Below are positions 5,105 to 27,169 of a DNA stretch of 64,000 nt, piece after piece. The stretch comes from Radicibacter daui (GTDB lineage Bacteria > Pseudomonadota > Alphaproteobacteria > Radicibacterales > Radicibacteraceae), in NCBI GenBank assembly GCA_030657355.1, contig CP131056.1, forward strand, positions 1,508,501-1,572,500. The letters are read 5' to 3'. Positions within the stretch are counted from its first letter, which is position 1. The number at the start of each line of letters is the position of its first letter. The position numbers and the translations under genes were made by a program. The notes below the pieces were generated by a model, which did no database searches, was not told the origin of the DNA, and saw only the letters and a list, made by a program, of their open reading frames with translations.

Positions 5105-6967
5105 TCAGGGCTCCTCATGGTGGGCGACGATGACCTCCGGCGGCGGCGGGTCGGCATAAAGCGCCGCGACTTCTCCCGGCCGGTGAGCCAGCACTGCGCG
5201 CTGGTTGATCGAGCCCTTGTCGGTAATCTCGCCGGTGTCGATGGAAGGGGCGCTCTCCAGCACAAGTGCCCGCCTGACCCGGGTGGACGAGCCGCCGGGC
5301 TCTGCCGCCAGCCGGTCGAGGCTGATTTGCAGGGCGGCGCGTACGGCGGGATGGCGGGAGATTTCGGCCAGCGGTGCCGTTGCCGGCAGGTTGGCCAGCA
5401 TGCGGCAGGCCTGTGGGTCGATGATGAGGATGGCGCTCAGGTCATTGCGGTCCGGTCCGGCCAGCACACAGTCGCGGACCAGCGGCGCGCAGGCGGCGAC
5501 CAGACGGGCGCGCATGGGGCCAACGCTGACCCAGGTGCCACTGCTGAGCTTGAAATCCTCGGTTATACGGCCATCGAACCAGAAGCCCTTGGCAATATCG
5601 GCCTCGTCCACAAAGCGCAGCGCATCGCCGAAGCGGTAATACCCCTCTTCATCAAAGGCCCTGGCGGTGACATCGGGCTGGCGCCAGTAGCCGGGCGTGA
5701 TGTTCGGCCCCTTGACGCGCGCTTCCATCTTGCCCTCCACCGGCACCATCTTCAGCAGGTTGCCCATTACCGGCACACCCACGCGGCCGGAGCCGGTGGT
5801 GGCAGGCGTGCAGCAGAGCGCGAAGGGGGAGCTTTCGGTGGCGCCAAGCCCGGTCAGGATGGGAATGCGGGCACCGATGGTGTCGATGGCGAGCTCATCC
5901 AGCGCCTCCCACACATGGGGCGGCAGGCCGGCACCGGCAAAGAACAGGGCTTGCAGGTTGCGGAAGAAGCTTTCCCGCAGTGCGCGGTCATCGCGCAGAT
6001 ACGGCACCAGGCTTTCATAGCCCTTGGGCACGTTGAAATAGACGCTCGGCGAGACCTCGCGCAGGTTGCGCACGGTCGCCTCGATGCCTTCCGGCACCGG
6101 TTTGCCATCGTCGATATAAAGCGAGCCGCCATTATAGAGCACCAGCCCGAAATTATGGCTGCCGCCGAACACATGGTTCCAGGGCAACCAGTCGACGATG
6201 GTCGGCCCGTCCTTCAGAAAGGCCAGAATTTCGCGCAGCATCACCTGGTTGGAGCTGCACATGCGCTGGGTGGTAATCACCGCCTTGGGGCCGCCGGTGG
6301 AACCGGAGGTAAGCAGGAATTTGGCGATTGTGTCGGGGCCGATGGCGCCGCGGTAGTAGTCGATCGCCGCGCCGGGTTTGGTGGCCTGCAACTCTGCAAG
6401 CGTGGTGGAGCGCCGCCCTGCAGCCGGATTGCGACCGATGATGACTTCCCGTTCCGCCGGCCAGACGGCGTCGAGCGCTTTGGCAAAGCGCGCGCCGTCG
6501 CTCACATAGACGAGGCCGGGCGTCAGCAGCGAAAACACATGGCGCAGTTTGCTGAAATCGGTGGAGATCAGCGAATAGGCCGGGGAGACGGGGCAATAGG
6601 GGATGCCGGCCTGCATGGCGCCAAGCGCCAGCAGCCCATGATCGATATCGTTGCCGGAGAGAATAACCAGCGGCTTTTCCGCAGAAAGGCCGCGCGCAAT
6701 CAATGCCTCGCCGATGGAGCGTGCCGCCGCCAGCGCCTTGGCATAGGTCACCCGGCGCCAGCTGCCATCGGTATCCCGTTCGGCAAGGAAGGTCTTGTCC
6801 GGTTCGGCGGCGGCCCAGTATTCCAGCCGCTCGCACATCGAGCTCGCATAGTCCGGCAAATTGATCCGGGGCGTGACCAGGATGGCGCCGTCAGCCCGGC
6901 GCTCCATGGTGACGTCGACATTGCCAAAGGCAACGTCGCGCAGCGGCTTCTGCATGACCGCATTCAT
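5105..6967 (-). CDS. fcs: Feruloyl-CoA synthase-like hydroxycinnamate:CoA ligase
   Basis: 620-residue adenylate-forming ligase that would activate ferulate, p-coumarate or caffeate with ATP and CoA. The AMP-binding P-loop TSGSTGGPK is at residues 220-228, and GATESSPFA and YRFGD are later core motifs. Family-specific stretches shared with feruloyl-CoA synthases include FLAERD, VILSGNDI, PYCPVSPAYSL and LLTPGLVYV near residues 60-155. The length matches that family (about 620, longer than ordinary acyl-CoA ligases). It is followed after one base by thiolase and preceded by an enoyl-CoA hydratase. The hydroxycinnamate assignment rests on these recalled motifs; the exact ring substitution cannot be read. 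Confidence 0.85.
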   Translation of the reverse strand: MNAVMQKPLRDVAFGNVDVTMERRADGAILVTPRINLPDYASSMCERLEYWAAAEPDKTFLAERDTDGSWRRVTYAKALAAARSIGEALIARGLSAEKPLVILSGNDIDHGLLALGAMQAGIPYCPVSPAYSLISTDFSKLRHVFSLLTPGLVYVSDGARFAKALDAVWPAEREVIIGRNPAAGRRSTTLAELQATKPGAAIDYYRGAIGPDTIAKFLLTSGSTGGPKAVITTQRMCSSNQVMLREILAFLKDGPTIVDWLPWNHVFGGSHNFGLVLYNGGSLYIDDGKPVPEGIEATVRNLREVSPSVYFNVPKGYESLVPYLRDDRALRESFFRNLQALFFAGAGLPPHVWEALDELAIDTIGARIPILTGLGATESSPFALCCTPATTGSGRVGVPVMGNLLKMVPVEGKMEARVKGPNITPGYWRQPDVTARAFDEEGYYRFGDALRFVDEADIAKGFWFDGRITEDFKLSSGTWVSVGPMRARLVAACAPLVRDCVLAGPDRNDLSAILIIDPQACRMLANLPATAPLAEISRHPAVRAALQISLDRLAAEPGGSSTRVRRALVLESAPSIDTGEITDKGSINQRAVLAHRPGEVAALYADPPPPEVIVAHHEEP

Positions 6968-22549: not shown

Positions 22550-23386
22550 TCAGTTGACGATCGAATTCCAAGCCCGGCTGAAGAAGCCTTCATCATTCTC
22601 CGTGCGCCATTTGGGATCGCGCAGCAGCGCGTAGCTGTCCTGATACCAGCTGCTGCCCGGGAAGTTGGCGCCCAGCACCGTGGCGGTGCGCTCGGCTTCT
22701 TCACGCAGGCCAATGGAAAGATAGGCCTCGACCAGACGATGCAGCGCTTCAGGCACGTGCGAGGTGGTCTGGTACTTGTCGATCACTTCCTTGAAGCGGC
22801 CGATGGCGGCCTGATACTGGCCCTGGCGCAGATACCAGCGGCCGATATCCATTTCCTTGCCGGCCAGATGGTCGACCGTCAGGTCGTACTTCAGCTGGGC
22901 GTCGCGGGCATATTCGGTATTGGGGAAGCGGCGGATGACCTCCTGCAGGTCGTCCATCGCCACCTTGGTGATCTTCTGGTCGCGCTTCACATCGGTGATT
23001 TGCTCATAGAAGCAGAGCGCGCGCAGGTAATAGGCGTAGGCGATATCCTCGCTGCCCGGATGCAGCTGGATGTAGCGCTCCAGCTCCACCACCGCATCAT
23101 CGTAATGCAGCGACTGGTAGTGGGCGTAGGCCGACATCAACTTGGCGCGGGTTGCCCAGGGCGAATAGGGGTGCTGGCGCTCCACCTCATCGAAGGACTT
23201 GGCGGCCGTCTCATATTCCTTGTTTTCCAGCTGGGCGTGCGCCTCGTTGTAGAGCTGCTCTACAGGGCGCTCTACATAAGGCTCCGGCTCCTTGGTGCTG
23301 GAGCAGCCGGCCAGCAGGGCGACACCAAAGAGAAGGGCAGCGGGCAGTCGCAAACGGCTGGAGAACATCGAAGAGCTGATCATCAA
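22550..23386 (-). CDS. bamD: Outer-membrane assembly lipoprotein BamD
   Basis: 278-residue lipoprotein of the BAM complex that inserts beta-barrel proteins. The signal peptide ends in the lipobox LLAG-Cys28. The mature protein has tetratricopeptide repeats (PVEQLYNEAHAQLENKEYE, FDEVERQHPYSPWATRA, RYIQLHPGSEDIAYAYYLRA, RFPNTEYARDA), the typical ComL/BamD set. Starts at 23383 or 23368 are also possible. Just upstream lies the chemoreceptor-fusion gene rather than lpxC. Confidence 0.95.
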   Translation of the reverse strand: MMISSSMFSSRLRLPAALLFGVALLAGCSSTKEPEPYVERPVEQLYNEAHAQLENKEYETAAKSFDEVERQHPYSPWATRAKLMSAYAHYQSLHYDDAVVELERYIQLHPGSEDIAYAYYLRALCFYEQITDVKRDQKITKVAMDDLQEVIRRFPNTEYARDAQLKYDLTVDHLAGKEMDIGRWYLRQGQYQAAIGRFKEVIDKYQTTSHVPEALHRLVEAYLSIGLREEAERTATVLGANFPGSSWYQDSYALLRDPKWRTENDEGFFSRAWNSIVN

Positions 23387-23578: not shown

Positions 23579-25942
23579 TCAGGCGCCGGTACGCTTGATC
23601 CAGGGGCTCCAGGGTTCGGGCGCCACCAGGGCTTCGCTGGTGGCGACAGGGGTGATGCCGCCGCCTGTGATGCGGCCCATGACAACCGGCTTGTGGAGAT
23701 GATGATTGGCCTTGTCCATGTGGACGGTAAAGCCGCTGGGCGCCGTAACGCTGAGACCGCCAAGAGCGGCGATGACGGCGGCCGGCTTTGTCGAGCCCGC
23801 CGCTTCCACGGCCGCGCACCAAAGCTGGAAGCCGATCCAGGTGGCTTCCATCGGATCGTTGGTCACGGCGCTCTTGCTGCCTGTGTGGCGCCGCCAGGCT
23901 TCGATGAAGCGATGGTTTTCCGGCGTGTTCAGGCTTTGCAGGTAGTTCCAGGCCACCAGATGGCCTTCCATCGCCTTCACCGGCAGGGTTTCCAGTTCGG
24001 CCTCGCCGATGGAAAAGGCCATGACGGGAACGTCGTTTGCTGTGATGCCCTGCCGGGCAAGCTCGCGGTAGAAATAGACATTTGCGTCACCGTTGATGGT
24101 GGAGATGACGGCCAGCCTGTCTCCGCGGCCAGCGCTGATGCGGCTGACCGTGGAGGCCCAGTCGCGATGGCCGAAATCGGTATAGATCTCCTCGATATCT
24201 TTTGCGGCAATGCCTCTGGCGGCGAGGAAACGCTTCAGGATGGCATTGGTGGTCCGCGGATAGATGTAATCCGTGCCGATCAGCATGAAGCGCCGGCGCC
24301 CTTCCTTCAGCAGATGCTCGGCTGCCGGCAGGGCCTGCTGTGCCGGGGTGGCGCCGGTATAGAAGATGTTGGCGGACTGTTCCTGCCCTTCATACTGCAC
24401 CGGGTAGAAAAGCAGGCCGCCGGCCTTCTCGACCACGGGCAAAACCTCCTTGCGGGAAGAGGAGGTCCAGCAGCCGAAGATGGCAGCCACCTTGCGCTCG
24501 CGCATCAGCTGGCCGGCTTGTGCGGCGTAGGTCGGCCAGTCCGAGCGCGGATTGAGAATCACAGGCTCCAGCGGGCGCCCCAGCAAGCCGCCGGCGGCAT
24601 TGCGTTCGCGGATCAGCATGACGAGGAGCTGCTGCAGCGGCTTTTCGCTGATGGCCATGGTGCCGGAGAGCGAATGCAGGATACCGAGCTTGATCACTCC
24701 CTCGCTTAGGTCGCTGAAATAGCCGTCGACAGCGCCGGTGAGCTGGCCCGTCTGATGCAGCAATTCGCCGGCGGTGCCGAGCATTGTCCTGCCCACCTCA
24801 TCGGTGCGCGTCACTTCCGCCGAGATATCGCCGAGCGCGCGGCTGACCGCCCGGGTCTTTTCGGCAACGGCATCGGCGCTGCGGGCAATGCGCTCGATGC
24901 GGCCGACACCGGCATTCCCGTGGTCGAGAGAGGTTGCCATCGTGCGGTTGGCGTCGCTCATGGCGATGACGTTTTCCAGCACGTCGCGAATGGCGGCGGA
25001 GGTAGAGCGCACGACCTCTTCCATGCGCCCGATACGCACAGCGACTTCTCCGGTGGCTTTGCCGGTCTGCAGGGCGAGGGATTTGACTTCGTTGGCGACG
25101 ACGGCGAAACCCCGCCCCGCTTCGCCGGCGCGGGATGCTTCGATGGTGGCATTGAGGGCCAGGAGATTGGTCTGTTTGGCGATCTGGTCGATCATCGCCA
25201 GCACGCTGCCAATTTCGCTCGCTGCATCGGAAAGGCTGGTGACGATTTCCTCGGTGCGGCGCAATCCGCCCACCGTGCGGTCGGCAAGGCCGGCCGATCC
25301 GGCCACGCTGTTGGCCGACCGGCGCAGCAGTTCGATCATCTGGTTGGCGGCTTCCGCCATCTCCTCCACCTGTTCGGCGGCCACGCCCGCAGCCTCGCTG
25401 GCCGCGCCAATCTGGCCGGCTATGGCGCTATTCCTGTGGACGAGGTCGGCAGCCCGCTCGCGGACCCCGTCGCCGGCTGCGGTAAAGGCGGCAACCAGAT
25501 GGCCGACGCGGCCGTGAAATTTTTCGGAGAAGAACTCGCGGGAGCCGTTGTGCAACTCGGCTTCTACCTGCCGGCTTGCCTGGTCGGCCATGGCGGCGTC
25601 GGCTTCGATCAGGCTTTCGCGTGCCGCTTCTCCGGCACGTGAAAGGCGCGCCGCAAGGCCGCCTGCACCACCGGTTTCGATGACGGCGAAACGATCTCCC
25701 AATGAAATGGCTTCCAGGGCATCGGCGATACCGTCGAGGGTGGAGGCGGGGCCGGCATGTCGTGCCGGATGCAACAGGAACGGCAGGAAGGCCGCCAGCA
25801 GGACGCCGGTTGTTCCGACCGCAGCGAGCGGGGCAAAACCGGCCAGCCCGATCCGGGCCATGACAAGGGACAAGAGAACCGCGGCTACTGCCGCCAGCAC
25901 CGTGCAGGCCAACTGCCTGACGCGCTCTCCACCAAGACGCAT
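23579..25942 (-). CDS. Chemoreceptor fused to a C-terminal UrtA/AmiC-like solute-binding domain
   Basis: 787 residues from the ATG at 25942 (GGGAGGG just upstream; a longer frame to 25984 lacks a ribosome site). Two hydrophobic segments (about 11-33 and 36-57) form a tight hairpin with almost no periplasmic loop. A coiled-coil methyl-accepting signalling domain follows (about 160-400) with the conserved tip [20 protein letters not shown] and [15 protein letters not shown] (255-290). From about residue 417 to the end is a complete type I periplasmic-binding fold of the Peripla_BP_5 class ([49 protein letters not shown]), as in UrtA and AmiC. With no membrane span before it, that domain should be cytoplasmic. 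The gene sits between lpxC and bamD. Ligand unknown; urea or short amides are the family default. Confidence 0.85.
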
Positions 25943-26119
25943 GAGCCCTCCCGCGCCAGAAGAATGACGGCTGTCATTCACCATAATGCTATCAGGCGTT
26001 TTGGCTTGTTCGCTACTGCAATACGATAGTGTGCATATAAAAATGTAACGATTCAGATGGGAGAATCGCTTGCCTTCCTGTCCCTGCTCCGGTCGTCGTC
26101 CGGATGACTGGACTGCGCA

Positions 26120-26182: not shown

Positions 26183-27169
26183 TTAGCTGGCGACACCGGC
26201 CACAGCCAGTTCCGCCGCGCCGGTGCGTGCCACATTGCGCAGGCGCACGATGCGGTAGTTCGCCGGGTCGGCATAAACCGCATGCAGCAGCTTGTTGGTG
26301 ATGCGGTGGCCGGCCTTGAAGCCGTGATAATGACCCAGCACCGGACCGCCGGCGAGGTAGGTGTCTCCAACGGCGTCCAGCACCTTGTGGCGCACGAACT
26401 CATCCGGGCGGCGCAGGCCTTCCGGGTTCAGCACACGGCCGCTGTCGACGATGACCGCATTTTCCATCGAGCCGCCGAGGCCAAGGCCGGCGGCGCGCAG
26501 CGCTTCGGCATCCTTGAGGAAACCGAAGGTGCGGCAGTTGGCGACTTCGCTCTGGAAGTTGCCATCTTCAAGCAGGAGACTGTGGCGCTGCTGGCCGATG
26601 GCACGGTCGGCAAACTGGATTTCGAAGCTGAAGCGGCGTTCGGAGGACGGCGTGTAGGAAGCCTCCACATCGCCTTCGCTGACGCTTACGGGGCGCAGGA
26701 TCTCGAGGGCACGGCGGTCGGCGTCCTGGATCTGGATGCCGGCGGCGTTGATGAGGAAGACGAACGGATCGGCGCTGCCATCCATCACCGGTACTTCGGC
26801 CGCATCGACGTGGATTTCGGCATTATCGATGCCGCAGCCATTCAGCGCGGCCATCAGATGCTCGATGGTGCCGACACGGGCGCCGGCCTCGTTGCCGATC
26901 ACGGTGCACAGGCGGGTATCGACCACACTGTTCCAGCGTGCTTCGATCAGGCCGTCCTGCGGGCGGTCGGAGCGGATGAAGACGATGCCGGTATCGGGCG
27001 CAGCCGGGCGCAGCTCGAGGCGCACCTTGCGGCCGCTGTGCAGACCGATGCCGACACAATGAATGGCGGATTTGAGGGTGTGCTGGGAGAACTCTGCCAG
27101 GGCCGGATTGTTGAGGGGCAAGACGAGAACTCCTGGTTTTTCCGAAGCAGCCTTACCCGGCTGCCGCAC
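26183..27169 (-). CDS. lpxC: UDP-3-O-acyl-N-acetylglucosamine deacetylase LpxC
   Basis: 328 residues; zinc hydrolase of the committed step of lipid A synthesis. Zinc ligands are seen at His104 (TIEHLMAAL), His261 and Asp265 (HKVLDAVGD). The catalytic His288 is in HGFKAGH, and the acid/base Glu lies near EVPVMDGSA. The N-terminus TLKSAIHCVGIGLHSG is typical. It is preceded by a 307-bp gap after ftsZ and followed by a strong hairpin, so it looks like a separate transcription unit. Confidence 0.97.
   Translation of the reverse strand: MRQPGKAASEKPGVLVLPLNNPALAEFSQHTLKSAIHCVGIGLHSGRKVRLELRPAAPDTGIVFIRSDRPQDGLIEARWNSVVDTRLCTVIGNEAGARVGTIEHLMAALNGCGIDNAEIHVDAAEVPVMDGSADPFVFLINAAGIQIQDADRRALEILRPVSVSEGDVEASYTPSSERRFSFEIQFADRAIGQQRHSLLLEDGNFQSEVANCRTFGFLKDAEALRAAGLGLGGSMENAVIVDSGRVLNPEGLRRPDEFVRHKVLDAVGDTYLAGGPVLGHYHGFKAGHRITNKLLHAVYADPANYRIVRLRNVARTGAAELAVAGVAS

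Follow-up and report, generated by a model that had tools for sequence, protein, structure and literature searches.

A chemoreceptor fused to an UrtA-type binding domain in Radicibacter daui, a candidate sensor of cytoplasmic urea or a related amide

AmiC, the amide sensor of Pseudomonas aeruginosa, plays its role in the cytoplasm. The protein described here, encoded in a stretch of 64,000 nucleotides of the Radicibacter daui genome (contig CP131056.1, positions 1,508,501 to 1,572,500; hereafter the window), would likewise employ a periplasmic-binding fold as a cytoplasmic sensor, although AmiC (1pea, 1qo0) acts on the antiterminator AmiR and not on CheA. The same fold, over the whole domain, is found in UrtA of the UrtABCDE transporter (8hic, 7s6e, 8tg1), in which eight residues around urea are reported to be strictly conserved: W120, S122, Y141, Q144, E146, Y190, N246 and S274 (PMC10392092). 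By alignment the window protein keeps all eight, whereas AmiC differs at four of them (the positions of W120, Q144, N246 and S274). Unlike UrtA, the window domain has no signal peptide, is predicted not to be exported, is fused to an MCP and scores below the NCBI cut-off for the family.

Chemoreceptors with a C-terminal ligand-binding domain make up, according to PMC7390727, a little-studied subfamily in which at least 17 types of domain occur. One of them, TlpD, for which a full structure has been reported, has no canonical methylation sites, and TlpD and other receptors with a C-terminal CZB sensor likewise carry the sensor on the ascending helix past the tip (PMC12871147). The CZB domain, though, is a helical bundle that binds zinc, and TlpD itself is soluble, whereas the window protein combines a two-lobed solute-binding domain with a membrane hairpin. 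The way in which a sensor behind the tip drives a chemoreceptor is just starting to be worked out, with TlpD as the case. One cluster of Peripla_BP_5 chemoreceptors appears in a survey of plant-associated bacteria (PMC8547431), and the literature searched yielded no study of a receptor with a C-terminal cytoplasmic Venus-flytrap sensor. The receptor thus belongs to the known class of C-terminal-sensor chemoreceptors, and its UrtA-type domain would make it a novel form within that class.

Domain order and the urea pocket

The fusion is encoded on the minus strand. The likelier start is the ATG at 25942, which has GGGAGG four bases upstream and gives 787 residues; an in-frame ATG further upstream, at 25984, would give 801 residues and has no obvious ribosome-binding site. 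Residue numbers used here are those of the 801-residue frame, and subtraction of 14 converts them to the numbering of the first-pass annotation (787 residues). The gene and its receptor half are laid out as follows.

23579..25942, minus strand: MCP-UrtA fusion gene, 787 amino acids, single open frame
25763..25927, minus strand: two-helix membrane hairpin, residues 20-74, from hydropathy, with no room for a periplasmic domain
25658..25762, minus strand: juxtamembrane helix-connector, residues 75-109, with an AF2 helix at 80-94; HAMP-like in layout only
24701..25657, minus strand: antiparallel coiled coil, residues 110-428, AF2 model m0d1bd25e7727, predicted helices 110-285 and 287-428
24797..25402, minus strand: MCPsignal domain, residues 195-396, Pfam PF00015, E 7.3e-27
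25103..25168, minus strand: signalling tip, the CheA/CheW-contact hairpin, from sequence; tip intact

The first-pass annotation had read a membrane hairpin, an MCP coiled coil and a whole periplasmic-binding fold in that order, and this order is indeed present in one open frame. A Pfam search returns both MCPsignal (195-396) and Peripla_BP_5 (431-794) in the single protein, and the PF00015 score of 94.7 bits, against a cut-off of 34.6, identifies the former as an MCP domain. The hairpin at the tip of an MCP is the contact for CheA and CheW. A membrane hairpin is also found in nearly all relatives. The HAMP domain has no Pfam match in the window protein, even at E 10, and a HAMP identity for the juxtamembrane segment was therefore dropped. 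The AF2 model has a mean pLDDT of 74.5; the binding domain lies mostly at 80-95, the hairpin is poorly modelled (residues 1-66 fall below 50) and parts of the coil are also of low confidence. In this model the coil helix extends to residue 428 and the binding domain opens with a strand at 431, leaving almost no linker. As a separate observation on the tip, the glutamate of the RAGE(x)GRGF motif is replaced by alanine or glutamine in three homologues (L056, L057 and L058), at a site that should be important for the kinase interface.

The second half of the protein carries the binding domain and its pocket.

23603..24694, minus strand: UrtA-type periplasmic-binding domain, residues 431-794, PF13433 (Peripla_BP_5), E 1e-138; predicted cytoplasmic
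24389..24469, minus strand: urea-pocket residues W506, S508, Y527, Q530 and E532 (UrtA W120, S122, Y141, Q144 and E146), by alignment; roles from PMC10392092
24266..24268, minus strand: urea-pocket residue Y573 (UrtA Y190), by alignment
24092..24094, minus strand: urea-pocket residue N631 (UrtA N246; Ser in Xanthobacteraceae homologues), by alignment
24011..24013, minus strand: urea-pocket residue S658 (UrtA S274), by alignment

The domain had been described at first pass as UrtA/AmiC-like, which holds, and solved structures of both proteins match it. It is nearer to UrtA, scoring 358 bits with 8tg1 and 159 with AmiC, and Foldseek gives a TM score of 0.92 (to target) for 8tg1. The domain follows the MCP coil with no signal peptide ahead of it, and on the NCBI UrtA model (TIGR03407) it scores 457.7 bits, below the curated cut-off of 492.75, whereas the genuine UrtA of the same genome reaches 599 bits. 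It is also not placed as an AmiC-type regulator, as its pocket follows UrtA and its gene neighbours are lpxC and bamD. Across 30 family domains, seven of the pocket positions are invariant or nearly so. The eighth, that of N246, holds Asn in the window protein, G163 and Elstera; 26 domains have Ser there and one has Gly. The window protein, G163 and Elstera thus keep all eight urea-site residues, identical to the genuine UrtA of the same genome, the Xanthobacteraceae members carry the single change N246S, and G042 has two pocket residues changed.

Relatives, gene context and the Azospirillum parallel

Among 385 genomes of the class, the fusion was found in the window genome, G163 and G042, and further cases, in Elstera litoralis and three metagenome-assembled genomes of Hyphomicrobiales, emerged when genome contigs were scanned. 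In the Elstera draft contig a frame change near 5248-5338 splits the fusion (L055:4202-6525). In a phylum sample of 398 genomes, fusion-level scores occurred only in the window genome and G042. The family of G360 yielded matches in 38 of 392 genomes, nearly all as open frames near 780-870 amino acids; the three metagenome-assembled genomes appear to be included in the 38, as their protein lengths are identical. In total, matches of this kind (group A) occur in 41 other alphaproteobacterial genomes, and the 29 full-length members that were read, the window's included, have one architecture. Other hits (G130, G315, G276, G375 and G259) resembled fusions in frame length but were rejected: they are ordinary proteins of UrtA type, and the sequence upstream of them is open but carries no MCP motif. 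Both halves of the fusion are under purifying selection in the tested pairs (dN/dS 0.05-0.22), and in each of the two pairs with values for both halves the binding domain has the smaller one (0.126 vs 0.215 for the MCP half in one pair, 0.076 vs 0.208 in the other).

Consensus methylation sites, defined as [ASTG][ASTG]xx[EQ][EQ]xx[ASTG][ASTG], are absent from 28 of the 29 full-length members, the window protein among them, and at least one such site is present in 30 of the 39 MCPs parsed from the same genome. The absence of these sites does not by itself exclude an MCP, because TlpD also lacks canonical ones.

The gene stands between two housekeeping genes, given here for context only.

26183..27169, minus strand: lpxC, upstream neighbour, PF03331, E 5e-102
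22550..23386, minus strand: bamD, downstream neighbour, PF13525, E 4e-55

That the gene interrupts an lpxC-bamD pair which lies closer together in relatives, as noted at first pass, was borne out: the gap is about 2.8 kb in the window and 47-836 bp in 22 other genomes of the class. Among 30 lpxC loci inspected in the class, these 22 others give a clear gap, one shows an uninterpretable overlap, and in seven (the window's included) the fetched stretch holds no bamD. The interruption is specific to the lineage and uninformative on function, since relatives adjoin rho, glyA-nrdR or other housekeeping genes; of seven loci of the Xanthobacteraceae type, five have rho and hem genes close by and the other two glyA and nrdR (names assigned by eye from sequence starts). 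No urea genes lie near the group A fusions at the loci examined, and a urea link by gene neighbourhood was therefore dropped for this group. Elsewhere, the window genome holds urtA, urtB, urtD and urtE, with a permease-like frame at the position of urtC, and it also holds urease.

Urea genes do stand beside the fusion of Azospirillum brasilense (group B; L157, L158 and L159), which has the same domain order and, in L157 and L159, the hairpin. On plasmid p1 of strain MTCC4039 (L157:340-9360), the fusion forms part of an urtABCDE-like operon in the order substrate-binding protein, UrtB, UrtC, UrtD, UrtE, MCP fusion and formamidase FmdA. It differs from the window protein in this operon site, in the clade of its binding domain and in keeping both methylation sites. 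The Azospirillum fusions have a Q144F/N246V pocket, as does the adjacent transporter protein, and their binding domains form a clade of their own that also takes in the stand-alone binding protein whose gene lies 4 kb upstream on that replicon. In an alignment by eye, the linker of the Azospirillum fusion resembles the signal-peptide region of that upstream protein with the hydrophobic core lost (best 12-residue hydrophobic mean 1.03 vs 2.02). A fusion of the Azospirillum type was sought in the three genomes of the G259 family, and none was found there.

In the binding-domain tree the group A fusions cluster in a single clade (100/100), beside alphaproteobacterial UrtA (wider join 88/98). In the tree of the MCP halves, the window protein groups with those of Hyphomicrobiales (99/96), and G163 and Elstera fall elsewhere; this free tree splits group A, but the AU test does not reject a single clade (p 0.32). 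On the evidence of the binding-domain tree, the Azospirillum protein is an independent fusion from a different binding-protein clade, and since the binding domains of groups A and B lie in separate clades, the fusion has arisen at least twice. As an independent parallel, the Azospirillum operon would tie the fused binding domain to a substrate that is taken into the cytoplasm.

Placement, ligand and signalling

In the window protein we found no membrane segment beyond the hairpin at 20-74. A span just before the binding domain, which the first-pass annotation had recognised would place that domain outside, is absent, the linker that joins the coil to the binding domain reaching a best 19-residue hydropathy mean of 0.51. 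The tip that binds CheA has to be in the cytoplasm. Because no span follows the hairpin, the G042 homologue has no recognisable membrane span by hydropathy, the Azospirillum linker resembles a signal peptide without its export core, and the tip meets CheA, we infer that the binding domain sits in the cytoplasm, as first proposed; the sensor would thus follow the signalling domain on its cytoplasmic side, as in other chemoreceptors with a C-terminal ligand-binding domain. Urea is the likeliest ligand of the window's copy, judging from the intact pocket and from the urt genes and urease of its own genome. With N246S in Xanthobacteraceae and two changes in G042, the ligand may differ among members, and a retuned amide ligand is possible in these relatives.

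Our preferred reading, which we consider somewhat better than an even prospect, is that the protein is a membrane-tethered chemoreceptor in which a C-terminal flytrap of UrtA type responds to urea, or a related amide, in the cytoplasm and drives CheA, with ordinary methylation playing no part. The hairpin would hold the coiled coil at the membrane, where the coil could join receptor arrays, and the C-terminal helix of the coil continues, in the model, straight into the binding domain's first strand. If the flytrap closed on urea in the cytoplasm, or on a close amide analogue, this helix would move at the end of the coil nearest the membrane, and CheA activity at the tip would change. The cell would then respond to internal urea, which its own Urt transporter or diffusion would bring in and its own urease would consume; adaptation, if any, might be supplied by neighbouring receptors or depend on non-consensus sites. 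Being small and neutral, urea and formamide pass through membranes to a degree, so a cytoplasmic sensor could follow the outside as well. Counted against this reading are the genes that adjoin the window gene and the inspected group A relatives, which are housekeeping genes and not urea genes, the pocket changes in the Xanthobacteraceae homologues and G042, the score below the NCBI UrtA cut-off, and the low confidence of the hairpin and of parts of the coil in the model.

Other explanations share parts of this evidence. The pocket might have shifted its specificity to a different small amide or carbamoyl metabolite, with topology and output unchanged, which we regard as unlikely, though a good deal less so than the alternatives that follow: Ser replaces Asn at the N246 position in 26 of the 30 family domains and Gly in one, the Azospirillum fusions carry their Q144F/N246V pocket beside a formamidase, and AmiC, of the same fold, binds amides, but the window copy, G163 and Elstera keep the complete urea site of the same-genome UrtA. 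It is improbable that the domain has ceased to sense a solute and serves as a structural or protein-docking tail which positions the receptor or recruits a partner. AmiC itself works by binding its partner AmiR (1qo0), and group A has no urea genes nearby; however, neither a pocket nearly invariant in 30 divergent domains nor a binding-domain dN/dS that falls below the MCP-half value in each of the two pairs measured would be expected of a disused pocket.

A periplasmic binding domain that senses external urea, in a receptor that is inverted or spans the membrane again, is very unlikely. In its favour, relatives of the domain are exported proteins, and a weakly hydrophobic stretch at 736-754 rises above the hydropathy threshold. 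This stretch lies within the folded binding domain, though, neither a span nor a signal sequence precedes the domain, the G042 homologue with no recognisable span and the core-less Azospirillum linker speak against export, and the CheA-binding tip must be cytoplasmic. Finally, an artefact, whether a frameshift, an assembly chimera or two genes merged in reading, can practically be dismissed. Two relatives, the Elstera litoralis draft (L055) and Azospirillum Az39 (L158), do have a broken frame or start, but the joining of two genes near base 24700, which had been raised at first pass, is ruled out by the same in-frame junction, which recurs across separate assemblies in 29 full-length members with the window's own among them, and selection is purifying on either side of the junction.

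Returning to the flytrap receptor, a broader interpretation, to which we give a little less than an even chance, is that an uncharacterised chemoreceptor family has, at least twice, internalised the binding protein of a urea/amide transporter as a tail that gauges imported substrate in the cytoplasm, giving a metabolism-linked chemotaxis to urea or formamide that is methylation-free in the main group. A bacterium may in this way steer by its internal level of urea or a similar small amide. A well-studied fold with a known pocket is here wired to an MCP in the model species Azospirillum brasilense and in dozens of other species, and such receptors make internal substrate sensing, signalling through a C-terminal helix and methylation-free adaptation directly testable.

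Other genes bearing on unusual receptor layouts and amide binding were seen in passing. Two neighbouring genes (L223 and L224; G000:C1:708894-713673) encode a short MCP tip near the N-terminus followed by about 310 residues that are possibly Cache-like (by eye), and a similar short-tip gene (L019:155-1192) divergently adjoins the G042 fusion. Two MCPs of the window genome (L203 and L220) extend about 245 residues past the tip and have a PilZ-like end (by eye). An AmiC-like binding protein without a signal peptide (L011; G000:C1:2323848-2324930) adjoins a gene resembling an isochorismatase-type hydrolase (by eye) and is a possible separate amide-type regulator.
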